A DNA stretch of 64,000 nucleotides from Nitrospirota bacterium (GTDB lineage: Bacteria > Nitrospirota > Thermodesulfovibrionia > Thermodesulfovibrionales > UBA6898), in contig JACRMT010000016.1 in the NCBI GenBank assembly GCA_016214855.1, forward strand, positions 62,001 to 126,000, read 5' to 3'. The notes beneath the pieces are model-generated. The model saw only the letters and a program-made list of their open reading frames with translations, did not search any database and was not told the DNA's origin. Of this stretch, positions 48,295 to 64,000 are shown piece after piece (positions within the stretch are counted from its first letter, which is position 1; the number at the start of each line of letters is the position of its first letter). The translations under genes and the position numbers were made by a program.

Positions 48295-48729
48295 ATGAAC
48301 TATCAGGTCGGCAGGCCGGGCAGAGTAATTGTGGTTCGTTTCGAAGACAGGGACGATATTCTTTCAAATCTCGTGCATATTGCAAAAAAAGAGAATATCC
48401 GGGCAGCAGTAGTGCATCTTGTCGGCGGCATGCGTGAAGGCAGCATTGTGGTCGGGCCTGAAACTGATGAGTTCCCTCCGAAGCCTGTATGGAAGAAGCT
48501 CGGGGAAAGCCATGAGGTTGTCGGCTTCGGCACGATCTTCTGGCAGGATGACGAACCAAAGGTGCATTTCCATGGGGCATTCGGTAAAAAGGATATGGTC
48601 AAGGTCGGCTGCCTCAGGGCTGATTCAGAGACCTTCCTGGTCCTTGAGGCGGTTATTACCGAAATAGAGGGCGTGACCGCAAGGAGAGAGCTCGATCCGG
48701 TATCAGCAATGGTGCTGCTGAAACTCTGA
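48295..48729 (+). CDS. PPC/DUF296-domain protein
   Basis: The 144-residue protein matches the PPC (plant and prokaryote conserved, DUF296) fold: YQVGRPGRVIVVRFEDRDDI at the start, VVHLVGGMREGSIV, GFGTIFWQDDEPKVHFHGAFG with clustered histidines, and a C-terminal strand. Plant relatives bind AT-rich DNA through an extra AT-hook, which is absent here, so DNA binding is uncertain. AAGGAGAGG precedes the ATG. Confidence 0.88.
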   Translation: MNYQVGRPGRVIVVRFEDRDDILSNLVHIAKKENIRAAVVHLVGGMREGSIVVGPETDEFPPKPVWKKLGESHEVVGFGTIFWQDDEPKVHFHGAFGKKDMVKVGCLRADSETFLVLEAVITEIEGVTARRELDPVSAMVLLKL

Positions 48730-48773
48730 GGTCCTGCTGCCCCAACTATTGGACTTCTTAATTGAACTGGTGA

Positions 48774-49316
48774 TTATTTAATCCTGACCCCAACATCATC
48801 GATACCATCGGCAACAGCGGCGCTGTTCGTAGGCGTTTCCAGGATGCCATTAGGCCCTGCCGAAATTATCCAGACTGGCTGCCCGGAAACTGCAAAAGCA
48901 TTTGCATTTGTCACGTAGCTGTTTCCCCAGGGATCCTTAGTCACAACTGCCATATACGATCCCTTCCAGTTCGTATAACAACCACCAACATCAGTAGATA
49001 AATGAGAATCGTATGAACTCGCAACGCCGGTATCATAGCCCATTGCAGCAAGGTCTGCAGGAAGATTGCCTGATCCCGACAGAAAAGTAACATTAGGTGC
49101 ACAGCCTCCATCCATCAAAGGCCAGGCTCCGGTATCCTTCTTGAACACGAGCATCGCAGCAGATATTGACTTGACATCAGCAGAAGCCCTTGTAATTTTC
49201 GACTCATCGATCTCCTTGAATATCAATGGCACCAGGATTCCGGCGAGTATGGCGATAATCCCTGCGACAACAATTACTTCGATCAGTGTAAAACCTTTTT
49301 CATTCCCGAACTTCAT
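48774..49316 (-). CDS. Type II secretion/type IV pilin-like pseudopilin (GspG-type)
   Basis: The 180-residue protein is started at the ATG at 49316, with GGAGGGAGGAC just ahead. Its prepilin signal is NEKGFTLIEVIVV (cleavage after Gly8) followed by a hydrophobic helix. The C-terminal part has KKDTGAWPLMDGG and TKDPWGNSYV, close to the major pseudopilin pattern that ends with a calcium-binding loop. No other secretion genes are adjacent. It diverges from the giant C25 protease gene, whose product might be its cargo. Confidence 0.85.
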   Translation of the reverse strand: MKFGNEKGFTLIEVIVVAGIIAILAGILVPLIFKEIDESKITRASADVKSISAAMLVFKKDTGAWPLMDGGCAPNVTFLSGSGNLPADLAAMGYDTGVASSYDSHLSTDVGGCYTNWKGSYMAVVTKDPWGNSYVTNANAFAVSGQPVWIISAGPNGILETPTNSAAVADGIDDVGVRIK

Positions 49317-49652
49317 AAAAGTCCTCCCTCCAAATAATTTCCTATGATACATCAGGTGATACATCAGGCTATCAACGTGATGGATCTTGAAAATTATTTC
49401 ACAACCTGACAGATAATACAACAATTATTCCGCGAAATGCGACAAACGGCAACTCATTTTACAGCAGCAGATCAGGGAAAGAGGATACTCCCCCGACCAA
49501 AAAAATGCTGTTTCCCGTGTATGCGTGAGGTTAAAATCCATTCTGTCGAACAGAGACGGCTGCTTTAAATATTTTACATGGCAATGATATAAGATGATAT
49601 AATTATGTAAATACTGTATTTAGTTGCCATGATCTGAACAGTGGAGGTTATT
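49317..49652. promoter_or_regulatory. Divergent intergenic region with nested inverted repeats ahead of the C25 protease gene
   Basis: This AT-rich stretch has no gene. TTTACAT (49573-49579) pairs with ATGTAAA (49605-49611), and CATGGCAA (49577-49584) pairs with TTGCCATG (49624-49631), giving interleaved inverted repeats. A weak TTTACA (49573) and TATAAT (49598-49603) pair has a 19-base spacer. GGAGG at 49643-49647 is the ribosome binding site of the downstream gene. The rest toward 49317 holds nothing that I recognise. Confidence 0.45.
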
Positions 49653-52600
49653 ATGTCCGGTCATTACAGATATTTTTCAAATCCCGCGCGTCAAGGAACA
49701 AGATTCATGAAATCAATAAGAGTTATTTATAAATTTTTGTTAGGTCTTTTAGTCATGCTGTCCGCATCGCCCGCGATGGGCCAAGTCGTGTCGGGGTATT
49801 CCGAATACTACATACCCGGCGACGAGGACACCATTGGTGCCGTCCTCTGCGCCCAGGGGGCGACTGCCTGCCCGGCGGGTTATCACACACACACTGTTAT
49901 CAGCGTGGCGGCATGGTCTGACAACACTACCATCTATTACGACCACTGGGAGAACGGTTACAACTTCGACCCCGCGAATCCAGGGGCTACGGCAGACGAG
50001 ACGTACACACTCAACACCGGCGGTATAAAAATCTTTGAGAGCGCGAACATCGCTCTCCCTACTACTCCGGGCGCATGCCCTTGCACCATCTACGACGGCC
50101 GGGACCGGATCTACGTGGCCGGCGGTGCCGTCACGGTCAGCCGGGTGAGTTGGATAGAGGAGCGGGGTGTAGGTCTCCAGGGGGTAGCCTGGGAGATTTA
50201 CCCTATCAAGCCCCAACTGACGACTTACATCGTCCCATTCGGGGAAACCAGCGGCTGGTACGGATTCCAGCGAGTGAACGTTCTGATCCAGGCCACGAAG
50301 GACAACACACAGGTCACTATTGATCTCAACAACGACGGCACCCCGGACGTCCTCGACCTGAACCGTAGCGGCATACTGGATGCCGGTGATGGGACGACCG
50401 TCACCCTTAACACAGGCCAGACTTTTTTGCTCGACGACGTGAGTGCCTTCGCAGCCCCAGGGACCCTGGCCGCGGGGGCCGTGATTACCGGCACCGACAC
50501 GCTTCAGGTCAAATACATCACCGGCCGGACTGACGTGAACAACCAGACCCGAGGTTTCAGTGCGTTTCCACGAGGCTTCTGGACAAAGGACTACTATGCG
50601 CCTCTCAACCAGCCCGGTCTGGACGACAACGCCCAGGCAAGCGATACTGACTACTACCTGTATAACCCAAACTCCTCAACAATCACGGTCGATTGGCAGG
50701 GTCGCACCACCTCCGGGACCTTCAACATCCTTGCCAATACTGTAGTTTCTTTCCGTGCAGCAAGTGGAGGCTCCGTCCCCCTGGACTCGGGACTGTACTT
50801 CAAGGGAAGCGATATATTCTGGGGTGTAGGCTCCAACGATGCCAACGGCGGAGGCGGTACAAGAGGGTTCGCGCACGAGTGGGGGTACAGCCTCCTCCCC
50901 TCCACAATGCTGTACACTGAGCATTTCCTCGGCTGGACCCCTAATGGCTACTGGCCCGCCGACGTTCCTCCCGGGCCTCGTGCCGGGGACAATGATATGG
51001 GCGTGTTCCTCACCGTTGCCCAGGACAACACCCGGGTCTTTGTGGACTTAAACAACGACGGTACGGTGGACCAGACTTACACTCTAGACCGCCTGCAAAC
51101 GCAGTACATAATAGATCCTGACGGCAACCTGTCGGGGGCACGCATCTGGGCGACCGGTGAGTTCTCCATGGCCTATGGTCAGAACTCAGACATCTCCGGG
51201 AACTCCACGCCGGCGCTGGACCTCGGCTATGTCGCGCTGCCGGCCACAGACTTCGTCTCCCTCGTGCTCAGCGTGGACAAGACTGTGAATCCTCAGGTCG
51301 TACCGACTGCAGCGGGGTCAACTGCCACGTTCACCCTCACCGCTAACTCTCAGAAATACACGGTGGATAATGTAATGATAATGGATATGCTGCCGGCTAA
51401 CTGGCAATATCTTGGCCCAACATCAATTACACTCCCCGATATGACGACAGTCACAACTGCACCGACTGTGACAGCTGCTGGAGCTGCCCTGCCGGCGCCG
51501 TTCACTGGCAATTGCCCGGCAGGCGGCGGTTCATGTCTCACCTGGGACAACACGGTGCTCGGCAATATGGCCGAAAATCAGCAGGTCACTATTTCCTTCA
51601 CTGCTCAGACAACAGCAGTCCTTGCCGCAGGAACCCTCAGCCAGAACCGTGTGAAGGCCATCGGCACGAGGACCTTCGGAACACCGAGCCAGACCCAGAC
51701 CTTCACAACAACTGACTTTGCTTATGTTGCCTCAGGGGGACCGACGATCACTAAGGCATCGGGGGCAGCTGACCCGGTATCTCCGGGTGACACGATCCCT
51801 TATACCGTTACTGTAACCAATCCTGCATCTGCAACAGCCAACCTGACAGGTGTCTCTATTTACGATCCCCTGCCGGCAGGGGTAAGCTATGTTCCTGCCA
51901 GCGGATCAGTAACCTGTGATATTCTACGGAACGTGGCCGACGTGTTCAACCCTGCACTCTACAATAACACGGGGCCTGGTTCAGTAAGTTGGGCCGCCAA
52001 TCCGTGGGCAGAGACAGACCCTGGTCCCGGCGCAGCCGGGGCAGGAGCCGGATTCGTATGGATCACGGCCGGCCAATTGCAGTTTCGATATCTGCTCTCC
52101 AATGTGCTCGATCAGTTCAACACCAACGGCAGCTATGCAGGAAATAATGGATCGAATAATTGGAGCAACAACTGGACGGAAGTCAATGATGACGGCTCAG
52201 CCGCGATCACGGGCAACCAGCATATGTACGTCAGCGGAAACCGTCTTGTATTTGATCGCAATCCCTCTGCAGCTAATCCGTTCATGATCAGCAGGACAGC
52301 CAATATCACGGGAGCTACAAGTGTTACGATCAGTTTCGTGCCTACTAACCGTACGGCAGGAGCCGGCGAGGCTGTGACTGCCGAATACAGTTTAAACGGG
52401 GGAGTTGGCTGGACGACGCTCGGCACCTTTGACGGGGGGGCGTCCGGTTCGTGGAGCGGGGTCACACAGGCCTTCGGTCCTATAGCCCCTGGCGGCGCAG
52501 CCTCGATCATCCTTCGATTTAGATCGAGTGCTGTTGCGTGGAATTCCAATAACGACGAAATATATTTCGACAATGTGGACATAAGCTTCAACGTCCCTGC

Positions 52601-55600
52601 CAATGCAGTTGGTTCACAGATCAAGCGCACTGCCAATCTCACCGGTGCCACGAACGCCACTCTGAATTTCGACTACAATTCAACAGGTCTTGCCGCAGGT
52701 GATACGCTGGTGATCGAGGCCGGCAACGCAGTAGCCGGGCCATTTACGGTCCTGGCGACTTTCACAGGCGGTGTTCCTAATGTTGCGCCACCCTACAGTC
52801 TGAATTCGTATATCTCCGGCTTTACCACCATACAGTTCCGTGTTACAGGCGGATTCAATGCCGTTGGTAAGACTTTCAATGTCGACAACGTGGATATCAG
52901 ATATATTGTGCCGCCGGCCAGTACATTCGCATCCGGCAATCCGCCTGATTTCCTGGCAAGCAGCGCAGGCTGTGTTATCGCTCCGGGCAGCTCACTCACC
53001 CTTACGTTTAGCGCCACCGTGGACGACCCTTTCCCTTCGGGTCAGACCATTATTACCAACACCGCATCGACAAGCTCCGTGCAGATCCCGATGGCGGTAT
53101 CTGCCTCGGCAACAAACACCGTGCTTGTACCGAGCTCCCTCAGCGCCAGCACCGGCGGCAGGATCTGGCTTGACGCTGATGCTGATGGAACGCAGGACAT
53201 AGGCGAACCGGGCATACCGAACACCGAGGTTACGCTCAAGGACCAGTTCGGAACGCCGATCGCAACAACTCTCACCGATGGCAATGGCCGCTACCTCTTC
53301 ACCGGCGTTACACCCGGGACCGGGTATTATGTCGAGGTGACTGACGGCCTCCCTGCAGGGCTGACGCAGACATACCCTTACACCTCAACACCCGGGGATC
53401 TGACGAACAATCGGACCACGACCTTCACGTTAGTCGACGGGCAGGTCTACACCTCAGGGAATATTGGTTATCGCGCAGCAGCCGGAACAGCGAGCTTCGG
53501 AGACCAGGTCTGGGTAGATGCCGATTCTGACGGGATTCGCGATGCCGGCGAAGTTGGCATGGGCGGGGTCACAGTCCAACTTTACCTTGATAATAACGGC
53601 GACGGCGTCATCGATGGCGGCGACACTCTTGCCGGGACACAGACGACTGCACCGGATGGGACCTACCTCTTCACAGGCGCCACTGCCACAGGGGCTGAGG
53701 ACTACCTCGTCTCGGTCACGACCCCTGCAGGCTATCTTGCGACAGGGGCTACGCAATTCCGCTATATCGATGTCACAGCCGGGAGCACCCTGCTTTTTGC
53801 TGATTTTGGCTTCGTGGACGACACGGTCACCACCTACACCATCAAGGACCGCGTATGGACAGACACTGATGGTGATGGAGTATTTGACGCGGGAGAAAGC
53901 GGACTTGCCGGGGTAACAATAGAACTGCTGGATGCAAGCCTCAATGTCATCGGCACGACAATTTCTTCTGCTGACGGCACATTTATCTTCAGCGGCGTGA
54001 CAGGTGGCGGTGCGGATTATACGGTACGCATCAACGACACGGGTGGTGTCCTTCTGGACTACTACGGTACAACCTCCTATTCTCTGGCCCTGCAGCGCGC
54101 CGAGAGCAACCTCAGCGCCAATGTGGACCACACCTCAGCGTCGCCCTTTGGCAGTTACGGGTTCCGCCCGTTGCGCAGCATCGGTGACACGGTATTTAAC
54201 GACCTCAACGGCAATGGAGTCCAGGATTCAGGAGAACCGGGTATCGCAGGGGTCATCGTCAGCCTCTACAGTAACAATGCCCCTCTCGGCACCTTTGACG
54301 GCAGCGATACCCTCATCAGCACCGTAACCACCGATGCGTCAGGCCAGTATCTCTTCTCGGGGCTTGCCGATGGGGAGTATATCGTCAGCGTGTCTGTCAC
54401 TGCAGGCTACAGCTTTATCCCCAACGGTGTCGTTAACCCTGACATGGACGGCAACGCGGCAAACGGTATCCAAAACAGGGCTGCGATCGCGGGCGGCGTC
54501 AACGACCTGGGTAAAGACTTTGGCTTCCAGGCCACGACTCCACGCACAGTCTCCGGCACAGTATGGGAAGACCTTGATGCTGACGGGGTGATAGACGGTG
54601 GAGAAAGCGGACTGGCTGGAGTTACGCTCGACATCCTTTCGGGCAGCACTGTTGTGGGTACGGTAACTACCAATGCTTCGGGTGTCTACACATTACCGGG
54701 ACTCGCCTCTGGCATCTATACGGTACGTATCACTGACACCTCAGGCGTACTTATTGACTACGAGCCGACCTTCGAATACGGCGTTGGTACCGGAGGCCCC
54801 TTTGACAATCAGGCCCCGGTGGACCTGACCGGCGGCAGCATCGCAACTGTGCACTTTGGTTTCAAAAAACCAACACCCACGCTTGTGACCCTTTCTGACT
54901 TCAGCGCGTATAAGGACAAAGGCAGGCTCGTTGTGCAGTGGACCACATCCTCCGAAACAGACACCGCAGGATTTTACCTTTTCCGGTTCGATGGCAAATC
55001 CGGCAGTTACCGCCAGATCAACAGCGGCCTTCTGCCTGCGCTGATCACCTCACAGCAGGGAGGCACATACAGCCTCATCGACAATGGCGCCTCTTTGACC
55101 GGCAGCAATACCTATCTGCTGATGGAGATAGAAGGCAAAGGCGGCAAGAACACCTACGGGCCGTTCACGGTTATGGCAGGGGCAGGCAATGCACTGGAAA
55201 GCCAATACAGCTCTGCGCCGAAGGCAGCCGGGGCACTGACCGGCATAACTCCGGGTTCAGCAGGCATTCAGGCAAGAAGCATCACGAAGTACGTTGACCG
55301 TGAAGGGACCCTTGTCATTGCGGCCGGCAGCGCATCTTCCCCGGGCATTGGCAGCCTCGTTACCAATGAGGTATCAGACTTTACGAGGGTGGCAAAAGCC
55401 ATCCCCGGGACCAAACAGGCAGCACTGGATAGCAGGGCAGAAGCCAGGGCAGCCTTCGGCCTTCTGCAGAAGCAGAAGACCGGCAATAAAGTGAAGATCA
55501 CTGTCAGCAAAGACGGACTTTACTATATGGACTCTGCAGAGATCTCCTCGCTGCTTGGGCTGACAGATGCCTGGGTAAGGCAGCTGATCAGATCCGGCAA

Positions 55601-57554
55601 GCTCGCATTAACCAATCAGGGCAACAATGTTGCTTACGTCCCTGCCGAAGACATGACCGGTCTGTTCTTCTACGGCCGGGGCATAGACAGCATATACACA
55701 AAAGAAAATGTCTACTGGCTATACAGCGGCAACGGGCTGCAGATGGCAAGCCTGGAAGGTTCAGGGCCCGCTCCGGCGGGATACAGCAGCTATAGAGAAA
55801 CAATCCATGCCGAGGAAGACAAGACCGTAGCCCCGGTGCTTGCCACAGGCCCGGAGTCTGACTACTGGTTCTGGGATTATGTGATAGCCGGCAATCCTTC
55901 ACTGGGCAGGAAACCCTTTGACCTGCAGGCCTTTGGTGTTGCTGACAGCTTATCTGCCGCTGCTCTGACGGCAACACTGCATGGCGTTACCGCTACCGGC
56001 GTAATCAATGAGCATCATGTAAGCATCAGCCTCAACGGTACGGTTATTGGAGAAGACCGCTGGAAAGGTATGGAGAAGCATATCGTCAACCTCAGTTTCA
56101 GCCAGTCATTGCTCCTTGAGGGAACAAATATCATAGAGGTCAAAGGCCTGCTTGATACCGGCATTCCTTACAGCGTATTCTTTGTGGATTCCTTTGACCT
56201 TACCTACCAGCGGTCATTGGCAGCCCATAATGATTCACTTGCCTTCACCGCAGCGGGCAGCCAGCCTCTGACCGTGCATGGCTTTACCAAACCCGATCTG
56301 TTCATCTTTGATATAACCGACCCTGACAGGCCGGTCTTGAACAGGGCCGCAACCATTGACGGCTCAGGCGGCAATTACAGCATAAGTTTCAGACCGTCGC
56401 CCGGCTCCCGCTATCTTGCTATAGCATCTGATGCGGCAGCTGCCCCTGTTGATGCGGTGGCATCCAACCCCTCATCACTTTCCTCCATGGAGAACATGGC
56501 TGACTACCTCATCATAACCACAAAAGAACTTGTTACCGCTGCGCAGGAACTTGCCGATTATCGGCAGGGACAGGGCCTTACGAGCATGATTGCAGATATC
56601 GAAAACATCATGGATGAGTTTAACCACGGCATATCAAACCCTCATGCAATCCGGACTTTTCTGGCTTATGCTTTTACCAACTGGAGGAAGGCACCGAAAT
56701 ATGTTCTGCTTGCAGGGGACGGGACCTATGATTACAAAGATAACATGGGCATGGGAGACAACCTTCTGCCGACCCTGATGGCCGAGACGCCGCAGGTCAT
56801 CTCGCCTTCCGACAACCTGTATGCAGACATGGACAATGATCATGTCCCTGATATTGCCATAGGCAGGCTTCCGGTGCTGACTGCTGAAGAACTGCGCAGT
56901 GTGATCGCCAAGATCATTGCCTATGAGAGCACTGCCGGCAGCAGGATCGTGATGCTTGCGGACAATCCGGATGCCGGGGGCAAGTTCCCCTCTGACAGCG
57001 ATGACGTTGCAGCGCTTGTTCCGGCAGGCTACTCGGTTTCCAGGATCTATCTTTCGGGGAATACCCTGGAGCAGGCCCGGCAGCTTCTTTTCAATGAAAT
57101 ACAGACCGGGGCCGTCCTGGTGAACTACACAGGCCATGCAGGTGTGGATCGTTTGGCCGGCGAGGGGCTGCTGCAGATGAGCGACGTGGCTTCCCTGCAA
57201 AATACCGTAAAGCCTTTTGTGCTGGCAGCCATGACCTGCAGCGTGGGAAACTTTGCCCTGCCGGGATATGATTCCCTCAGCGAGGCCCTGGTGACAAAAG
57301 ACCGGGGAGGCGCTGTGGCTGTCTGGGCACCTTCCGGACTGTCGTATAACTATCTGTCAAAGGTGCTGGATGAGCAGTTCTTCCGGGGCGGACTCCAAAA
57401 CAGACAGTTCTTCCGGAGCGGACTTCAAAACGAGAGGGTTGCCTTAGGCAATGTAATACTCAAGGCATTCAGAAATTACCAGGCTGCGGGCAGACCTGCC
57501 TATATCATGGATATCTTCAACCTGCAGGGCGATCCGGCGCTGCGGTTGTGGTAG
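49653..57554 (+). CDS. Giant secreted protein with DUF11-like and five SdrD-B-like domains and a C-terminal C25 (gingipain-type) peptidase
   Basis: The 2633-residue product starts at the ATG at 49653, five bases after GGAGG. A signal peptide ends near residue 45 (LLVMLSASPAMGQ). Next come a large beta-rich N-terminal region, a DUF11-like domain (SPGDTIPYTVTVTNP), and five SdrD-B-like modules at about 1168-1740, each with an Asp-rich calcium-type loop (WLDADADGTQD, VWVDADSDGIRD, VWTDTDGDGVFD, VFNDLNGNGVQD, VWEDLDADGVID). A linker domain (VVQWTTSSETDTAGF) leads to the peptidase from about 2280, with catalytic H2495 (YTGHAG) and C2529 (AMTCSVGNF). It ends DPALRLW with no sorting tail. A 30-bp in-frame tandem duplication lies at 57375-57434. 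Confidence 0.9.
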   Translation: MSGHYRYFSNPARQGTRFMKSIRVIYKFLLGLLVMLSASPAMGQVVSGYSEYYIPGDEDTIGAVLCAQGATACPAGYHTHTVISVAAWSDNTTIYYDHWENGYNFDPANPGATADETYTLNTGGIKIFESANIALPTTPGACPCTIYDGRDRIYVAGGAVTVSRVSWIEERGVGLQGVAWEIYPIKPQLTTYIVPFGETSGWYGFQRVNVLIQATKDNTQVTIDLNNDGTPDVLDLNRSGILDAGDGTTVTLNTGQTFLLDDVSAFAAPGTLAAGAVITGTDTLQVKYITGRTDVNNQTRGFSAFPRGFWTKDYYAPLNQPGLDDNAQASDTDYYLYNPNSSTITVDWQGRTTSGTFNILANTVVSFRAASGGSVPLDSGLYFKGSDIFWGVGSNDANGGGGTRGFAHEWGYSLLPSTMLYTEHFLGWTPNGYWPADVPPGPRAGDNDMGVFLTVAQDNTRVFVDLNNDGTVDQTYTLDRLQTQYIIDPDGNLSGARIWATGEFSMAYGQNSDISGNSTPALDLGYVALPATDFVSLVLSVDKTVNPQVVPTAAGSTATFTLTANSQKYTVDNVMIMDMLPANWQYLGPTSITLPDMTTVTTAPTVTAAGAALPAPFTGNCPAGGGSCLTWDNTVLGNMAENQQVTISFTAQTTAVLAAGTLSQNRVKAIGTRTFGTPSQTQTFTTTDFAYVASGGPTITKASGAADPVSPGDTIPYTVTVTNPASATANLTGVSIYDPLPAGVSYVPASGSVTCDILRNVADVFNPALYNNTGPGSVSWAANPWAETDPGPGAAGAGAGFVWITAGQLQFRYLLSNVLDQFNTNGSYAGNNGSNNWSNNWTEVNDDGSAAITGNQHMYVSGNRLVFDRNPSAANPFMISRTANITGATSVTISFVPTNRTAGAGEAVTAEYSLNGGVGWTTLGTFDGGASGSWSGVTQAFGPIAPGGAASIILRFRSSAVAWNSNNDEIYFDNVDISFNVPANAVGSQIKRTANLTGATNATLNFDYNSTGLAAGDTLVIEAGNAVAGPFTVLATFTGGVPNVAPPYSLNSYISGFTTIQFRVTGGFNAVGKTFNVDNVDIRYIVPPASTFASGNPPDFLASSAGCVIAPGSSLTLTFSATVDDPFPSGQTIITNTASTSSVQIPMAVSASATNTVLVPSSLSASTGGRIWLDADADGTQDIGEPGIPNTEVTLKDQFGTPIATTLTDGNGRYLFTGVTPGTGYYVEVTDGLPAGLTQTYPYTSTPGDLTNNRTTTFTLVDGQVYTSGNIGYRAAAGTASFGDQVWVDADSDGIRDAGEVGMGGVTVQLYLDNNGDGVIDGGDTLAGTQTTAPDGTYLFTGATATGAEDYLVSVTTPAGYLATGATQFRYIDVTAGSTLLFADFGFVDDTVTTYTIKDRVWTDTDGDGVFDAGESGLAGVTIELLDASLNVIGTTISSADGTFIFSGVTGGGADYTVRINDTGGVLLDYYGTTSYSLALQRAESNLSANVDHTSASPFGSYGFRPLRSIGDTVFNDLNGNGVQDSGEPGIAGVIVSLYSNNAPLGTFDGSDTLISTVTTDASGQYLFSGLADGEYIVSVSVTAGYSFIPNGVVNPDMDGNAANGIQNRAAIAGGVNDLGKDFGFQATTPRTVSGTVWEDLDADGVIDGGESGLAGVTLDILSGSTVVGTVTTNASGVYTLPGLASGIYTVRITDTSGVLIDYEPTFEYGVGTGGPFDNQAPVDLTGGSIATVHFGFKKPTPTLVTLSDFSAYKDKGRLVVQWTTSSETDTAGFYLFRFDGKSGSYRQINSGLLPALITSQQGGTYSLIDNGASLTGSNTYLLMEIEGKGGKNTYGPFTVMAGAGNALESQYSSAPKAAGALTGITPGSAGIQARSITKYVDREGTLVIAAGSASSPGIGSLVTNEVSDFTRVAKAIPGTKQAALDSRAEARAAFGLLQKQKTGNKVKITVSKDGLYYMDSAEISSLLGLTDAWVRQLIRSGKLALTNQGNNVAYVPAEDMTGLFFYGRGIDSIYTKENVYWLYSGNGLQMASLEGSGPAPAGYSSYRETIHAEEDKTVAPVLATGPESDYWFWDYVIAGNPSLGRKPFDLQAFGVADSLSAAALTATLHGVTATGVINEHHVSISLNGTVIGEDRWKGMEKHIVNLSFSQSLLLEGTNIIEVKGLLDTGIPYSVFFVDSFDLTYQRSLAAHNDSLAFTAAGSQPLTVHGFTKPDLFIFDITDPDRPVLNRAATIDGSGGNYSISFRPSPGSRYLAIASDAAAAPVDAVASNPSSLSSMENMADYLIITTKELVTAAQELADYRQGQGLTSMIADIENIMDEFNHGISNPHAIRTFLAYAFTNWRKAPKYVLLAGDGTYDYKDNMGMGDNLLPTLMAETPQVISPSDNLYADMDNDHVPDIAIGRLPVLTAEELRSVIAKIIAYESTAGSRIVMLADNPDAGGKFPSDSDDVAALVPAGYSVSRIYLSGNTLEQARQLLFNEIQTGAVLVNYTGHAGVDRLAGEGLLQMSDVASLQNTVKPFVLAAMTCSVGNFALPGYDSLSEALVTKDRGGAVAVWAPSGLSYNYLSKVLDEQFFRGGLQNRQFFRSGLQNERVALGNVILKAFRNYQAAGRPAYIMDIFNLQGDPALRLW
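57375..57434 (+). repeat. 30-bp tandem duplication inside the C25 peptidase
   Basis: Two copies encode QFFRGGLQNR and QFFRSGLQNE. The frame is kept. They lie near the end of the catalytic domain, about 45 residues before the C-terminus. Confidence 0.9.
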
Positions 57555-57555
57555 C

Positions 57556-57870
57556 ATGTCAGAAAAAATGAAGGATCAGGAAGCTCCCTTGAGGGAAAAG
57601 GTCTTCATGAAAAATGAAGATATTGTCACCCGGAAGATCGCCGGGGAGCTCTTCATTGTGCCTGTCAGGGGAAGGCTGGCTGATATGCAGAGGATCTTCA
57701 CCCTCAATCCGGTTGCTGAATACATCTGGGATTCTCTTGACGGCCGGGCAAGCATTGAAGATATCCGCAGAGGCGTCTTATCCGCGTATGAAGTCCCGGA
57801 AGATCAGGCAAATACTGATATCGCGGATTTTATCAGAGAGCTTTTGGATGCGGATCTGATCAGGGAGTGA
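57556..57870 (+). CDS. PqqD-like peptide-binding chaperone
   Basis: The 104-residue protein has the PqqD (RRE) fold pattern: a strand-rich start (IVTRKIAGELFIVPVRGRLADMQ), FTLNPVAEYIWDSLDGRASIEDI and a winged-helix end (ADFIRELLDADLIRE). PqqD-type proteins bind leader peptides and deliver them to radical SAM enzymes. The gene begins one base after the protease stop, and its own stop abuts the radical SAM start, so all three are likely translated from one message. Confidence 0.88.
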   Translation: MSEKMKDQEAPLREKVFMKNEDIVTRKIAGELFIVPVRGRLADMQRIFTLNPVAEYIWDSLDGRASIEDIRRGVLSAYEVPEDQANTDIADFIRELLDADLIRE

Positions 57871-57878
57871 ACAGAACC

Positions 57879-58979
57879 ATGGAATGTTTGGAAACGACAT
57901 ACCCTGATAATATGCAGTATCTCCGGGAATTCAATGCAAGGTCAGCCAGACTTCGTGTGCCGCTTTCCGGCAGTCTTGATCTTACACACCGCTGCAATCT
58001 CAGATGCCTGCACTGTTATACCGGCGATCATGCCGGCGATATGTCCGTTACGGAGATGGATACCGGGAGAATAGTATCACTTCTCGATGAACTCAGTGAT
58101 GCCGGCTGTCTCTATCTCCTGTTGACAGGAGGCGAACCCCTGCTGAGAAAGGATTTCCCTGAAATTTATCGTTATGCAAAAGAGAAAGGTTTCGTCATAA
58201 CCGTATTTACAAACGGCACGCTGATATCAGACGAAATCGTACAACTTTTCGAGAAAATGCCGCCTCACATCGTTGAGATAAGCCTGTATGGAGCTACTGG
58301 GCCGACGTATGAAAGCATCACCGGCGTAACGGGTTCGTACCAAAAATGCCTTTTGGGCATCAATAACTTGTTGGATCAAAAGATAAATGTCAGACTGAAA
58401 ACCATTCTTATGACCCTTAACAGCCACGAATTCTCTGATATAGAACGCATGGCAAAGGACTTCGGGGTGAAATTCCGTTTTGATGCAGGGATATTCCCTC
58501 GTTTAAATGGAGACCAATCTCCTGTCAGTTTCAGAGTTGCACCAGCTGAGTCAGTGGACAAGGAATTTTCAGCCATCGAACGTATCGCCGAGTGGGAAAA
58601 GTTTCTTGACAATCATTGGCATGGATCTTTCTCTGATGACCTCTATCAATGCGGGGCCGGAATTACAAGCTTCTATATAGACCCCTTCGGAAATCTGCGT
58701 CCCTGTCTCATGACGACCACCCTTTCCTATGACCTTCTAAAAGGAAGCTTCTTTACCGGTTGGAACGAAATATCATCGCGTATCAGAGAGAAAAAAGCAG
58801 GTCGTGAGTTCGCCTGTAATACGTGTGACAAAAAACTGCATTGCGGTTATTGTCCTGCTTTTTTCGAACTTGAAAACAGGGATGAACAGGTGCGTTCCGA
58901 ATACCTTTGCGCCATGGGGATCAGTCGGCACGAAAAGTTGCAAAATATCTACTCAAAAGGAGCTCAGCATGAAAAATAG
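57879..58979 (+). CDS. Radical SAM/SPASM peptide-modifying enzyme
   Basis: The 366-residue enzyme has the radical SAM cluster C39, C43 and C46 (CNLRCLHC), the SAM-binding LLLTGGEPLLRKDF and NGTLI, and a C-terminal SPASM region with clustered cysteines (YQCGAG, FGNLRPCLM, CNTCDKKLHCGYCPA, YLCAMG) for auxiliary iron-sulfur clusters. I chose the ATG at 57879 behind AGGGAG; a GTG at 57867 overlapping the pqqD stop is possible. Its placement between a PqqD-like gene and a small peptide gene points to modification of that peptide. Confidence 0.93.
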   Translation: MECLETTYPDNMQYLREFNARSARLRVPLSGSLDLTHRCNLRCLHCYTGDHAGDMSVTEMDTGRIVSLLDELSDAGCLYLLLTGGEPLLRKDFPEIYRYAKEKGFVITVFTNGTLISDEIVQLFEKMPPHIVEISLYGATGPTYESITGVTGSYQKCLLGINNLLDQKINVRLKTILMTLNSHEFSDIERMAKDFGVKFRFDAGIFPRLNGDQSPVSFRVAPAESVDKEFSAIERIAEWEKFLDNHWHGSFSDDLYQCGAGITSFYIDPFGNLRPCLMTTTLSYDLLKGSFFTGWNEISSRIREKKAGREFACNTCDKKLHCGYCPAFFELENRDEQVRSEYLCAMGISRHEKLQNIYSKGAQHEK

Positions 58980-59142
58980 CGACCATGAAATGACAAGCAA
59001 ACAGGCATATGAAAAACCAAAGCTCAGGGTTATCGAGCTGGTCGCCGAAGAAGTGATGGGCGTCGGATGCAAAACTGCTGCGAGTCCCGCGCTTGGTGCA
59101 TCCTTCTGTGCCTCTGGCGCGTGTTCACTCCCGGGATCATAA
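58969..59142 (+). CDS. Putative radical-SAM-modified precursor peptide (RiPP-like)
   Basis: The 57-residue peptide overlaps the radical SAM stop by 11 bases and has AAGGAG about eight bases before its ATG. The N-terminal part (QAYEKPKLRVIELVAEEVMG) looks like a leader with alternating hydrophobic positions suited to PqqD binding. The C-terminal part after GVGCK is small-residue-rich, with Cys34, Cys47 and Cys52 (SFCASGACS), and ends PGS. Cys next to Gly/Ala/Ser suggests thioether formation, as in sactipeptides and ranthipeptides. The modification is inferred and not visible. Confidence 0.7.
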   Translation: MKNSDHEMTSKQAYEKPKLRVIELVAEEVMGVGCKTAASPALGASFCASGACSLPGS

Positions 59143-59236
59143 CCAGAATTGGGAATCCCTTGAACTCTATTTTTTTTCATCTCTTTCTGCCTTTTCACCA
59201 GCGCATAGAATTTCTTGTTTCCTCTGCGCACTCCTG

Positions 59237-60154
59237 ATGGAAAACGTCATGCATATGGAAGTCGCCGGCATTAATTTTGCCGTCAGCTGTCATTACCCGC
59301 TCTCCGTCGACAGGCTTCAGGATACTTACCACCCGTTCATAAACAATGCCGTTTCTCCAGCGGCAGATATACACGTCAATGTCCGGATCGAGACCGGCGA
59401 CATGCCTGACACCGGACAGATGACAAAGGTCTTTGATACCGGCCAGTCCTGGTCTATGTTCAGACAGGGTACTGATTATTTCCTGTCGCTCAATTTCCCC
59501 TCGGCAGGCGGCCGGGGCATCTGGCTTGCAGCGTTCGACATGTATTGCGATACCATAACAATCTATTGCAGTGACCTGCTCATCAACAAAGGTGAAGGTG
59601 AAGGGCAGACAACCTGTTTTACGCCGCTGACCTATCCCCTTGACCAACTCCTATTGATGTACATACTGGCAGCGAAAGGTGGTGCATTGCTTCATGCCGC
59701 CGGAGCTGACATGAACAGCAGGGGATACGTCTTCCCCGGCAGATCCGGCGCCGGCAAAAGCACCCTGTCACGTCTCTTTCTCCCCATAGAGACAGCACAG
59801 GTGCTCAGCGATGATCGCATTATAATCAGAAAAATAGACGGCATATTCATGGCGTGCGGAACACCCTGGGCAGGGGATGCCGGGATAGCCGAGAATAAAC
59901 GTGTCACGCTTGACCGCATATTCTTTATTCGTCATGCCGGAACAAACAGGGTAAAGGAGCTTACACCAGCAGAGGCGGTTAAAAGGCTTATGCCGGTGAC
60001 CTCTGTTCCATGGTATGACAGGCAGGCAATGCAGAGCATACTTACATTCTGTGAGGACCTGGTTCTGAATATACCTGCATATGAACTATATTTCAGGCCT
60101 GATGCTGAAATGGTCACATTTCTTGAAGATTTCATCACCCGGGGCAGGATATGA
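59237..60154 (+). CDS. HPr-kinase-like P-loop protein
   Basis: The 305-residue protein has the Walker A loop GRSGAGKST at 168-176 within YVFPGRSGAGKSTLSRLF. It is preceded by LLHAAGADM and followed by LSDDRIIIRK, the pattern of HprK-related kinases found beside PqqD proteins. The N-terminal 150 residues are a beta-rich domain that I do not recognise. The start is uncertain: the ATG at 59237 has no clear ribosome binding site and ATGs follow at 59249 and 59255. It may phosphorylate a protein or peptide of this cluster; such homologues are known in peptide-maturation neighbourhoods. Confidence 0.75.
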   Translation: MENVMHMEVAGINFAVSCHYPLSVDRLQDTYHPFINNAVSPAADIHVNVRIETGDMPDTGQMTKVFDTGQSWSMFRQGTDYFLSLNFPSAGGRGIWLAAFDMYCDTITIYCSDLLINKGEGEGQTTCFTPLTYPLDQLLLMYILAAKGGALLHAAGADMNSRGYVFPGRSGAGKSTLSRLFLPIETAQVLSDDRIIIRKIDGIFMACGTPWAGDAGIAENKRVTLDRIFFIRHAGTNRVKELTPAEAVKRLMPVTSVPWYDRQAMQSILTFCEDLVLNIPAYELYFRPDAEMVTFLEDFITRGRI

Positions 60155-60191
60155 TCAGCCCGGAGGCCGGCGGCTGTTGACCGCAGCATAG

Positions 60192-60707
60192 ATGATGCCT
60201 TACGATAAGCATATGCAGAAGGGGTCAGTGCTTTATTTCAGGGAAATGGCCGGAGCAGTTCTCAGAGAAGGCGCACAGCTCTCATTTCGGGCAGGCGGCA
60301 GGTCCATGTCACCCTTTATCCGTGACAATGAAACCGTCATAGTTGAGCCGCCATCCAGCAGTCTGCGCATCGGTGATGTAATCCTTTTTGGGTCCTCAGA
60401 ACAGCATCTGACGCTCCACCGCATAGTCAGAAAAACAGCTGACGGTTATGTAACAAGAGGTGATTCTACCTGCCATGAAGACGGGACGGTTCATCATAAT
60501 GCGGTTCTCGGCAGAGCTGTCCTTGTTGTCGGCGGCCTGAGCTTCCACCTCAGATTTCCGCTCAGCGCGCTCGTGGCCCTTGCACTCCGCATGAGAAAAC
60601 GGCCCGCGCTTTTTGGCATACTCAGAGTACCCGGCCGTTTTCTTCTCCGCAGCCTGCAACAACCGGGCAGAGGCCGCGCACGTACCAGCTCGCAGAGATT
60701 GACATAG
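60192..60707 (+). CDS. S24/S26-family signal-peptidase-like protein with Ser/His site
   Basis: The 171-residue protein has the nucleophile motif GRSMSPFI (S38), the strand RIGDVILF, and LTLHRIVR where H76 stands at the position of the general base, then TRGDS. A His here is the eukaryotic/archaeal (SEC11) type and differs from the Ser/Lys dyad of bacterial LepB. A hydrophobic segment at about 107-132 could anchor it, but no N-terminal transmembrane helix is seen. In this cluster it is a candidate leader-cleaving protease. Confidence 0.8.
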   Translation: MMPYDKHMQKGSVLYFREMAGAVLREGAQLSFRAGGRSMSPFIRDNETVIVEPPSSSLRIGDVILFGSSEQHLTLHRIVRKTADGYVTRGDSTCHEDGTVHHNAVLGRAVLVVGGLSFHLRFPLSALVALALRMRKRPALFGILRVPGRFLLRSLQQPGRGRARTSSQRLT

Positions 60708-60733
60708 TATATGATCCCTGTGATAATAACTAT

Positions 60734-61378
60734 ATGAACTTCCCGAAGATACTGACAATAGCTCTGTCCGTCGTCTTGCTGTTTGCAAGTCAGACATTGG
60801 GGCAGCCGCGCACCGCAGAGGAGGCTTGCGATTCCCTGAAGGCTGCTGTCAGGAGCGGCGCAGAACCGCGCTCTGCGCTCAGGGACATACTGAGGACAAA
60901 GCAGGAATTCTGCCCGATCATACGCTGCGCTCTTGAGATCGGCATACCGCTTAAGGCAGTACATCTGGCAGCAAGAGACGCAGCCCTGCAGGACGACGTG
61001 GTAACCCGCTGCTCGACTTCAGCCTGCAGTCAGACCTTCAGACTCTTCGAAACAGATGAGGTCTGCAAACAGATAAAACGGGAGGTCGCAAGCGGAAAAG
61101 ATGCTGCTGCGGTGACCCTCGAAAAACTTCGTCAGGGATATCAGGCCTGCATTGTGCTCAAGTGTACAGTGGCTGCAGGCGCCGATCTTGACGGCGTGAT
61201 CAAGGCTGCGCGTGACGCAAAGGTATCCGATGATATCATTTCACGCTGCTGCATGGACGGCTGCGCAGACCCTTACCGCGTTGCCAGACTCCTGCGTGAA
61301 CCTGACAGGGTCATCCCCATTGAACCGACAAGGCCGGGAGGCACAAAATCCGGATACCTCAGCCCATCAGGCTTTTAA
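60734..61378 (+). CDS. Exported protein with two five-cysteine repeats; family not recognised
   Basis: The 214-residue protein has a signal peptide (MNFPKILTIALSVVLLFAS, cleavage about residue 23). The mature part consists of two 65-70-residue repeats with the same cysteine pattern: C32, C60, C65, C93, C98 and C111, C139, C144, C172, C177 (spacings 28-5-28-5 in both), with an extra C173. Both share KxAARDA before a D-D-V/I-V/I run and a final RC. This implies a disulfide-stabilised or metal-binding helical domain in the periplasm or outside. It follows the signal-peptidase-like gene by 26 bases. Confidence 0.75.
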   Translation: MNFPKILTIALSVVLLFASQTLGQPRTAEEACDSLKAAVRSGAEPRSALRDILRTKQEFCPIIRCALEIGIPLKAVHLAARDAALQDDVVTRCSTSACSQTFRLFETDEVCKQIKREVASGKDAAAVTLEKLRQGYQACIVLKCTVAAGADLDGVIKAARDAKVSDDIISRCCMDGCADPYRVARLLREPDRVIPIEPTRPGGTKSGYLSPSGF

Positions 61379-61477
61379 TTTGTCAGCTTTGCTGCCCCAA
61401 CGTTTTTCTTTAAGCTGCTTTTTTTAGCTCTCACTATCAGCTTTTCGGCGCCCTGCCTCACCAATATTAATATTTTT

Positions 61478-61505
61478 TTGCGATATTTTTATGCAATAAT
61501 ATAAC
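61478..61505 (+). promoter_or_regulatory. Putative promoter of the beta-barrel gene (TTGCGA-16-TATAAC)
   Basis: TTGCGA at 61478-61483 and TATAAC at 61500-61505 are 16 bases apart. If it is used, transcription starts at or just after the first ATG at 61509, so either the message is leaderless or translation begins at the ATG at 61530. Confidence 0.4.
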
Positions 61506-61508
61506 AAT

Positions 61509-63107
61509 ATGGTTTATGTTAAGAAAAAGATGTTCTCGGGAAAAAGATGGTCCGGTCCTGCTTTCCCCCTACGCAGAGCATGTCAGGAGATCTTTCTTGT
61601 ATTAGCTCTTTTTTTGCCGATCTGTAATGCGTGGGCTGCATCCGGACCGGGCAATCAGAACGAGATCCCGGCTGTGCAAGCTGTCACTCCATCAGATCTG
61701 CAGCCCGAAAAAGCTGCCGCAGCACCGGCTCAGAAGTTGGAAATGGGGCGCTTCAGCAGTATGGAAACTGCAAAGGCCTTTCTCCTGAATCTCACGGAAA
61801 GCGGGTACATCGGCGGCATCGAACAACAGAAAGACAGCAGCGGACAGATCGAGTATCAGGTGCATGTTCTGCTTTCCTCCGTGCCTGAGGCAGGCGCAGG
61901 CTCTGAAAGTCTGACCTGGTCTCTTCTCGGGACAAAGGGAAAGAACATACACGGTGCAGTGACCCTCACCGGTATCTTCACAGACAATGCCTTTAATACA
62001 AAGGAAAACCGCAAGAGCGACTTTTCCCTGTTCCTCACGCCGGAGGTCTGGCTGAATCTTCCGCGCACAGACAAGGGCATTTCCTACGAAAGTGTTTCTC
62101 CCCGCTCGGCAGGCGGGCATCTCGTTGATACGCTTCTGGGCGAGCGGCTCTTCGGATATCAGGCTTCACTCTATTATCGGGCTGATCTGCCGCTGATAAC
62201 AGCAAAGACCTCACCTTACGGCAATGCTGCAACGCACAAGCTTGCAGCCGGACTTGCCCTGATCGGCAACAGATTTTCTCTCATCCTGTCAGACCAGTTC
62301 GAGAAGTCCTATCAGGAGCGGGAAGCAGGCCAGCTCATCCGTGCTGATGCCGAAAATCGCTATGATGCAAACCGCTTAAGCGCAAGCGCAGCCTATGATA
62401 CCAGAAACCGCCTGATCTTCAGCCTCGACTATACAAACTTCACCACTCAGTATAGCGGCGAAAGCTCGGCGCTCCTTGACCGACACGACTATGGGCTTAC
62501 TCCGGCTGTTCGGTACAGGATCACTCCCAGGATCAACCTGTTGGCCGAATATACCTTCTACTCCATTTCCTACGACGGCAACAGCTTGTTGGACAGCAGG
62601 GAGCAATATCTTCTGGGAGGTCTCGAATGGAGGCTCACGGAAAAGTCTTTCGGCCGCCTCAAGGCAGGTTATGAGATGAAAGACTTCGAACACGGAAGCA
62701 GGTACAAAGGCTACAGCTTTGAGCTTCAGCTGGAACACAGACTGACACCGAAAACACAGGTTGCCCTGGCCGCATACCGCAAGACGAACGAGACACGGGT
62801 CATAGGGACTGCCTTTGCGATATCAACGGGTGCCCGCCTTGCTCTCAGTCATATGATAACCGCCAGGATCACTGCAGCGGCCAAGCTTTTTTATCTGAAC
62901 GACCGGCACAGGGGAACTTCTCCGGCACTGCTTTCGGAAACTGCAGTAAAGGACAACATTTATCAGGCCGGCATTGAAGTCCAGTATGCCTTCCGCAGAT
63001 GGCTCAGGGCACGCGCGGAATACCTCTTCACCGTAAAAGATTCAACAGACCCTGCCTTTGACTATCGTTCCAATACCCTGCTTTTAGGCCTCACCGGCTC
63101 GTTCTGA
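61509..63107 (+). CDS. Outer-membrane beta-barrel protein with SPOR-like N-terminal region
   Basis: The 532-residue protein has a signal peptide (IFLVLALFLPICNAWA, cleavage near residue 44) and a short SPOR-like segment at about 75-120 (LEMGRFSSMETAKAFLLNL, YQVHVLL). About 20 amphipathic strands follow, ending LLLGLTGSF with a terminal Phe, as expected of outer-membrane barrels. It resembles barrel proteins found next to Wza-type genes in exopolysaccharide clusters, and the next gene is such a Wza homologue. The start could be at 61530 instead. Confidence 0.82.
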   Translation: MVYVKKKMFSGKRWSGPAFPLRRACQEIFLVLALFLPICNAWAASGPGNQNEIPAVQAVTPSDLQPEKAAAAPAQKLEMGRFSSMETAKAFLLNLTESGYIGGIEQQKDSSGQIEYQVHVLLSSVPEAGAGSESLTWSLLGTKGKNIHGAVTLTGIFTDNAFNTKENRKSDFSLFLTPEVWLNLPRTDKGISYESVSPRSAGGHLVDTLLGERLFGYQASLYYRADLPLITAKTSPYGNAATHKLAAGLALIGNRFSLILSDQFEKSYQEREAGQLIRADAENRYDANRLSASAAYDTRNRLIFSLDYTNFTTQYSGESSALLDRHDYGLTPAVRYRITPRINLLAEYTFYSISYDGNSLLDSREQYLLGGLEWRLTEKSFGRLKAGYEMKDFEHGSRYKGYSFELQLEHRLTPKTQVALAAYRKTNETRVIGTAFAISTGARLALSHMITARITAAAKLFYLNDRHRGTSPALLSETAVKDNIYQAGIEVQYAFRRWLRARAEYLFTVKDSTDPAFDYRSNTLLLGLTGSF

Positions 63108-63133
63108 CGGCAGCCTGTCCTGTTCTTGCATTG

Positions 63134-63148
63134 GCCAACAGTAGGTGC
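63134..63148. repeat. Dispersed 15-bp motif GCCAACAGTAGGYGC, copy 3
   Basis: GCCAACAGTAGGTGC is followed by small stem-loops (GGTGC TCCAG GCACC, then GGTGC TTTAG GCATC). It lies between the barrel gene and the polysaccharide export gene. Confidence 0.6.
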
Positions 63149-63205
63149 TCCAGGCACCGACAGCAGGTGCTTTAGGCATCGAAAATGGTCTATAATTGTA
63201 CTGTA

Positions 63206-64000
63206 ATGAAAAGAATAATCTATATCTTTCTTGCCATGCTCTTCCTGACGTTTCCTGGAGCAGCAGCATACGCAGAACAGGATTACATGATCGGACCTGA
63301 TGATGTGGTCAAGGTGACGGTTTACAACCACCCTGACCTGACTGCTACAGACCGCGTAAGCGGCGAAGGCGTGATCATGCTGCCGCTCATAGGCGACGTG
63401 AAACTCGCAGGTCTCTCGGTTGAACAGGCAGCAAAGAAGATCAGTCGGCTCCTGAGCGACGGCTTTATCATGGACCCGAAGGTCTCGGTCTTTGTTATTG
63501 AGTTCCGGAGCCGCAAAATAATGATCATGGGGCAGGTCTTCCGCCCCGGCGTATTCACGCTCAGCGGCAGCACCACGTTTCTTGAACTGCTGACGCTCGC
63601 AGGAGGCCTGACCAAGGAGGCCGGCGACAAGGCCACGATCAAGCGCAAGACGCTCGATGCGGACAGGGAAAGGGAAGGTCTCATCACTATAGACCTCAGA
63701 AGACTGATCGATCAGGGTGATGCGTCGCTCGATGTCATGCTCATGGACAATGACAGCATATACATTGCAAAGGCAGGTGTCTTCTACATCACCGGCGAGA
63801 TACGAAAACCTGACGCGTACAAACATGAGGAAGGTCTTACGGTGATCAAGGCAGCGACCATGGCCGGCGGCTTCTCGGACAAGGCAGCTCCCGGAAGGAT
63901 CAAGATCATCCGAAAAGTGGACAAAAAAGAGAAGGTGATCGAGCGTGCCGGCATGGACGAGCTGATCCTTCCTGACGACATTATCATCATACCGGAGAGT
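63206..64000 (+). CDS. Wza-type polysaccharide export protein (cut by window edge)
   Basis: The frame begins at ATG 63206 and stays open to the window end (265 residues). A signal peptide (MKRIIYIFLAMLFLTFPGAA, cleavage near YA-EQ) precedes a polysaccharide export (Poly_export) domain: YMIGPDDVVKVTVYNHPDLT, SGEGVIMLPLIGDVKLAGLS and VSVFVIEFRS. SLBB domains then follow, with GQVFRPGVFTLSGSTTFLEL and GEIRKPDAYKHEEGLTV. No lipobox Cys is seen, unlike Wza of Escherichia coli. A TATAAT sits only nine bases before the ATG and no ribosome binding site is present. Confidence 0.93.
   Translation, partial: MKRIIYIFLAMLFLTFPGAAAYAEQDYMIGPDDVVKVTVYNHPDLTATDRVSGEGVIMLPLIGDVKLAGLSVEQAAKKISRLLSDGFIMDPKVSVFVIEFRSRKIMIMGQVFRPGVFTLSGSTTFLELLTLAGGLTKEAGDKATIKRKTLDADREREGLITIDLRRLIDQGDASLDVMLMDNDSIYIAKAGVFYITGEIRKPDAYKHEEGLTVIKAATMAGGFSDKAAPGRIKIIRKVDKKEKVIERAGMDELILPDDIIIIPES

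Follow-up and report, generated by a model that had tools for sequence, protein, structure and literature searches.

A gingipain/PorU-family protease gene associated with a putative radical-SAM RiPP cassette in Nitrospirota and other phyla

The window analyzed here, a stretch of 64,000 nucleotides from contig 16 of a 3.3 Mb Nitrospirota (Thermodesulfovibrionales) genome, carries seven consecutive plus-strand genes between positions 49653 and 61378, all confirmed where the original prediction had placed them (Table 1). Its proposal of a seven-gene unit holds for the first six genes, which form a compact block. The C25 stop and the PqqD start are 1 nt apart, the PqqD and radical SAM (rSAM) genes overlap by 4 nt, and the precursor start overlaps the end of the rSAM gene, while gaps of 94 nt and 37 nt precede the HprK-like and signal-peptidase-like genes, respectively. 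A GGAGG ribosome site was observed 5 nt upstream of the C25 ATG at 49653. The seventh gene, encoding the Cys-repeat protein, was rejected as a member, as outside the genus it follows EpsL/Wza-type genes and not the cassette. A strong promoter-like site at 60699-60727, overlapping the 3' end of the signal-peptidase-like gene and lying just before the Cys-repeat gene (11 of 12 matches with an extended -10, a consensus match only), suggests that the latter may be a separate transcription unit. An Rfam search of 48700-64000 matched no RNA element. Directly upstream of the C25 gene lies a GspG-type gene (type II secretion pseudopilin-like; 48774-49424, minus strand), an arrangement also present in L026 and L027.

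Table 1. Positions of the cassette genes, their sub-features and flanking genes in the window.
Feature	Position	Strand	Basis
C25 (gingipain/PorU-family) protease gene, 2633 aa	49653-57554	+	Pfam, nearest solved structures, ribosome site
C-terminal region common to all linked C25 proteins	55692-57551	+	Alignment A1
C25 catalytic His	57135-57137	+	Aligned to gingipain R His
C25 catalytic Cys	57237-57239	+	Aligned to gingipain R Cys
PqqD-type RiPP recognition element (RRE), 104 aa	57556-57870	+	Pfam PqqD, 56.3 bits
SPASM radical SAM enzyme (rSAM), 370 aa	57867-58979	+	Pfam Radical_SAM, 82.9 bits
Precursor peptide, 57 aa	58969-59142	+	Precursor-family features
Presumed leader	58969-59067	+	Precursor family
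Presumed core, CKTAASPALGASFCASGACSLPGS	59068-59139	+	Precursor family
HprK-like kinase, about 305 aa	59237-60154	+	Invariant residues, structure model
Signal-peptidase-I-like (archaeal/ER type) Ser/His protein, presumed leader peptidase	60192-60707	+	sigpep_I_arch 38.3 bits, invariant triad
Secreted Cys-repeat protein, neighbor judged outside the cassette	60734-61378	+	Goes with EpsL-type genes
EpsL-like outer-membrane barrel, start of polysaccharide export set (context only)	61509-63107	+	EpsL, BBP2_2

The C25 protein comprises an apparent signal sequence, a DUF11 domain, five SdrD_B modules (Pfam, 259 bits) and a C-terminal catalytic domain (Pfam Peptidase_C25, 275 bits, residues 2289-2636), and in most loci the protein ends directly after this domain. 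The closest solved structure is PorU (6za2), followed by gingipain R, and the catalytic His and Cys are retained in all 55 linked C25 copies. Domain score and intact dyad place the protein in peptidase family C25. An identity as the T9SS sortase PorU was rejected, the score against the PorU equivalog (NF033707) being 234.8 bits with a cut-off of 420; the type IX secretion model SprA_N matched nothing in the host genome and was equally silent in control genomes. PorU and the gingipains share the C25 catalytic domain and its His/Cys dyad with the present protein, which differs from them in its SdrD_B modules, in a catalytic domain mostly at the extreme C-terminus and in its RiPP-cassette partner. 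Because the dyad is intact in every linked copy, a role as passive scaffold is disfavored. Locus L077 (3125-21872) encodes two C25 proteins with unrelated N-terminal parts, each gene followed by its own near-identical precursor, with the HprK-S26-PqqD-rSAM genes after both pairs. This combination points to the C-terminal part that the two proteins have in common, about 860 residues, as the natural partner of the peptide.

The core of PqqD, rSAM and small peptide anticipated in the original prediction was supported by Pfam, the leader motif and adjacency, and the HprK-like and S26-like proteins were likewise supported as its companions. As in discrete-RRE RiPP clusters, a PqqD-fold RRE, an RRE-binding leader motif and a modifying enzyme all lie adjacent. 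The closest solved structures to the RRE are the lasso RREs TbiB1 (5v1u) and 9x90. The rSAM is closest to SkfB, and its CxxxCxxC motif and SPASM cysteines are invariant in 24 homologs. NCBIfam family scores of the kinase (HprK_rel_B, 32 bits) and of the signal-peptidase-like protein are both below cut-off, and the HprK assignment was therefore checked with a structure model (pLDDT 89.6). The modeled fold is that of the PEPCK/HprK superfamily, with a Z of about 13 to PEPCK, and a Foldseek search with the model also listed HPr kinase (1knx). Among kinase homologs, a His, the P-loop Lys and one Asp are invariant, and a second Asp position is occupied by Asp or Glu. In the signal-peptidase-like protein, Ser38, His76 and Asp91 are invariant; it matches Peptidase_S24 (Pfam, 24.4 bits), is nearest to SEC11C/SEC11 by sequence and adopts a signal-peptidase/LexA fold in its model. 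Its gene is not directly next in 12 of the 34 linked loci with enough context. In L075 (14353-15993), an NTP_transf_5 domain is fused to an S24/S26-like peptidase on the opposite strand beside the C25 cassette.

Judged by their sequences, the precursors form one clear family, with the consensus YEKPxLRxIELxAEEVxxxGCK. The motif YxxPx[LVIFA] was present in 36 of 36 precursors, and in linked precursors the leader mostly ends in EEVLxxG, followed by CK and a core rich in Gly, Ser, Ala and Pro. Among the C25-linked precursors, the core contains exactly three Cys in 44/44, the last residue is Ser in 43/44 (Thr in the other), and the last Cys is located 5-6 residues from the C-terminus in 43/44. Small residues occupy position -3 relative to Cys34 in 39/44 and position -1 in 44/44, which would suit a signal-peptidase-type cleavage at Gly33/Cys34. 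The Lys after Cys34 is invariant and is the sole basic core residue in 17 of 36 precursors, including that of the window. The leader covaries with PqqD when C25 is allowed for (partial r 0.42; 0 of 1000 permutations as high). Core and C25, with rSAM allowed for, gave no signal (0.04; 241/1000), and recognition of the variable core by C25 was rejected. No NCBIfam model matches the precursor, and an identity as lipoprotein was discarded, with Leu at -4 of the Cys rather than -3 and the N-terminal signal absent. In L052 (2795-2980), a second precursor copy with a core identical to that of the main precursor lies just upstream of C25.

The association of C25 with the cassette was examined in two samples. 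Among 60 relatives plus the host genome (C25 threshold 185 bits or more), the cassette rSAM was found in 23 genomes and a strong C25 in 14, all 14 among the 23. C25 together with the cassette was seen in 11 genomes of the host's order besides the host itself. The phylum sample comprised 296 genomes picked without regard to C25 (threshold 600 bits or more); 22 genomes carried the rSAM and 12 the C25, all 12 among the 22. The Fisher p values, 3.6e-8 for the order and 8.6e-16 for the phylum, overstate the number of events, because related genomes are not independent draws. The remaining 10 of the 22 cassettes of the phylum sample lack C25, which is thus not needed for the cytosolic pathway. Cassettes without C25 have the same kind of precursor. 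The neighbors tested beside such cassettes were a PKS, a class I tRNA synthetase, UvrB, an M48 peptidase, a molybdopterin oxidoreductase, a methyltransferase and one unmatched protein, with no common partner replacing C25 among them. In L044 (8629-16428), the gene adjoining a C25-less cassette codes for a polyketide synthase of 2599 aa whose N-terminus carries a PilZ domain. Thirteen further genomes of the phylum, from other families (G091, G099, G102, G108, G116, G122, G128, G132, G136, G140, G144, G212 and G313), encode a shorter, lower-scoring C25 and no cassette rSAM; C25 as such is therefore not the trigger.

Scanning species genomes with the C25 alignment yielded 77 loci. Relatives included, 80 distinct C25 copies were obtained, of which 43 lie directly beside a cassette, 12 near one and 22 alone, with 3 undecidable owing to short downstream sequence; these proportions are biased because the scan was seeded with linked C25s, and the fair comparison comes from the phylum sample. 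Dozens of genomes in other phyla also carry C25 with the cassette, about ten phyla in all. The hosts include Nitrospirota, Thermodesulfobacteriota, Acidobacteriota, Aminicenantota, Planctomycetota, Lentisphaerota, Kiritimatiellota, Verrucomicrobiota, Chloroflexota and CSSED10-310, where single cases may be misbinned because nearly all hosts are metagenome assemblies. The window copy belongs to a group of the C25 tree (SH-aLRT 93, quick method) in which 41 of 45 members are linked; the three unlinked members come from genomes with a strong cassette rSAM. The pairwise distances of C25 track those of rSAM (correlation 0.75; 0 of 2000 permutations), and gene distances in general correlated with r 0.67-0.75. 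The cassette genes remain together despite several rearrangements, including the orders C25-rSAM-peptide-PqqD-HprK (L031, L109) and PqqD-rSAM-peptide-HprK-C25 (L047) and convergent genes (L094, L102). The recurrence in about ten phyla and the association in the phylum sample show that the link is more than local chance. The tie between C25 and the cassette, for which a lack of co-occurrence in related genomes would have been damaging, withstood this check in the order and in the phylum.

Several characterized systems resemble parts of the cassette. In the linear polyphosphorylated peptides (LPP) of Bacillota, a discrete RRE binds a YxxP leader, an HprK-like kinase phosphorylates core Ser, and an archaeal-type signal-peptidase homolog with Ser/His/Asp cleaves the leader with RRE assistance (Popov et al. 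2026, PMC13381572). The present cassette shares the YxxP leader, the discrete RRE, the HprK-like kinase and the archaeal-type signal-peptidase-like protein, and polysaccharide genes are often near. NTP_transf_5 genes and MsbA-like ABC transporters occur near the cassette in some relatives, as in LPP clusters; both are absent beside the cassette of the window. Unlike LPP, the cassette adds a SPASM rSAM, a three-Cys core and a C25 partner and is found outside Bacillota, and its precursors do not match the LPP leader motif YxxPxVLxHQxIxFETxxS. In paeninodin, the target of the HprK-like kinase is the C-terminal Ser of the lasso precursor (review PMC9266682). Such phosphorylated lasso systems share with the cassette a lasso-type RRE, an HprK-like kinase and an invariant C-terminal Ser, but neither the lasso macrolactam synthetase C nor the leader peptidase B2, a cysteine protease, was matched among the genes of 49653-61378 (Pfam, NCBIfam), where rSAM and C25 are found instead.

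A SPASM rSAM together with a Cys-containing precursor also characterizes the sactipeptide and related radical-SAM RiPP systems (SkfB, AlbA). The three invariant core Cys would be compatible with the Cys-to-alpha-carbon thioether of sactipeptides, which is not proof of one; in contrast to those systems, the cassette has a discrete RRE, a kinase and a signal-peptidase-like enzyme, and its scores are below the curated cut-offs. The SynChlorMet cassette (NCBIfam ScmC-ScmF) likewise combines PqqD-like, HprK-like and radical SAM proteins, whereas here one rSAM adjoins one identified precursor. An identity with SynChlorMet was rejected, with 19, 38, 84 and 73 bits for ScmC, ScmD, ScmE and ScmF against cut-offs of 125, 100, 400 and 400.

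From the gene set and its order, the conservation, the co-occurrence, the catalytic residues and the precursor family, we infer a pathway of reactions, leader cleavage, export and a C25 step, the last being the least certain. We consider it somewhat probable that the locus represents a novel radical-SAM RiPP family that depends on an RRE and has an active C25 as its dedicated partner outside the cell. A small three-Cys peptide is very probably the substrate that the cassette enzymes modify, phosphorylate and cut. In the cytosol, the PqqD-type RRE would capture the YxxPxL leader and present the precursor, and the SPASM rSAM would act on the three-Cys core, most likely by a thioether or other Cys-centered change. 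The invariant C-terminal Ser (Ser57) would then be phosphorylated by the HprK-like kinase, and the signal-peptidase-like enzyme would cut off the leader, probably at Gly33/Cys34, to give a 24-residue core starting with Cys-Lys. This order is proposed because of the LPP and paeninodin precedents and the matching invariant residues. The window's cassette contains no exporter gene, and the peptide would leave the cell by a route encoded elsewhere. Gingipains cleave after Arg or Lys; because of this specificity and the invariant Lys after Cys34, a candidate recognition residue, we lean toward a C25 that trims or attaches the exported peptide outside the cell, a role to which we give moderate odds. 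A sortase-like C25 that covalently anchors the modified phosphopeptide on the cell surface, on exopolysaccharide or on C25 itself appears quite unlikely; the RiPP would then be, with equally slight probability, a structural surface modification and neither a diffusible signal nor an antibiotic.

The action could also run in the opposite direction, the modified peptide inhibiting the surface protease, becoming a small subunit of it or decorating it covalently. A precedent for a peptide subunit exists, as radical-SAM-crosslinked QhpC becomes part of a periplasmic dehydrogenase. The strict co-occurrence, the one-to-one C25-precursor pairs duplicated in L077 and a variable core lacking the covariation with C25 that a substrate might show are in line with such a role. 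Nevertheless, a passive target would not need the dyad that all linked C25 copies keep, and cassettes without C25 have the same kind of precursor, so we regard this direction as possible and rather doubtful. Less probable still is a mere sharing of an expression program, for example with exopolysaccharide, in which peptide and C25 would be produced jointly as exported surface products with no mutual action. Downstream of the cassette in the host genome lies a polysaccharide export set of EpsL (49.5 bits, below cut-off; BBP2_2, 73 bits), Wza (from 63185), Wzz/kinase and Wzy. Polysaccharide export genes were located near 9 of 52 C25-cassette loci versus 1 of 21 solo C25 loci, which are unequal in length, and near three C25-less cassettes. 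The link between polysaccharide genes and the cassette is suggestive only, and C25 adjoins the cassette in many loci where polysaccharide genes were not found.

An accidental neighborhood, with C25 unrelated to the cassette, could draw on the cassettes that lack C25 and on the cassette-free C25 in Verrucomicrobiota and in another part of the host phylum. It is contradicted by the co-occurrence in both samples and by an adjacency maintained across phyla and through rearrangements, and we consider it extremely improbable.

Each enzyme type of the cassette is known, and C25 is, as far as could be checked, a new partner for such clusters. The arrangement had been predicted to be undescribed, and in the literature searched (subscription journals lay outside it) we found no paper on PqqD with HprK and none on C25 with radical SAM and PqqD or RiPP. 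As far as checked, the cassette unites radical SAM peptide chemistry, the kinase and leader cutter of LPP and lasso systems and a gingipain/PorU-family protease, previously seen apart. Its precursor is strikingly uniform. The cassette is widespread in mostly uncultivated phyla, and this recurrence speaks for a peptide natural-product system, so far undescribed, with ties to the cell surface. If C25 does process or attach the peptide, the gingipain family would gain a role in natural-product maturation. The biological role of LPP peptides was left open (PMC13381572), and the related C25 cassette therefore bears on that question.

Two further loci depart from the usual gene content. In an Acidobacteria assembly (L116, 1-2797), the order is C25-PqqD-precursor-HprK; the intervening rSAM is missing, and the assembly, which may be incomplete, yielded none of the cassette family, which hints that the phosphorylation step may stand without rSAM. 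In L057 (14540-21586), the C25 cassette is followed directly by a 475-aa fusion of PqqD and radical SAM and by another PqqD-rSAM-HprK-S26 set.
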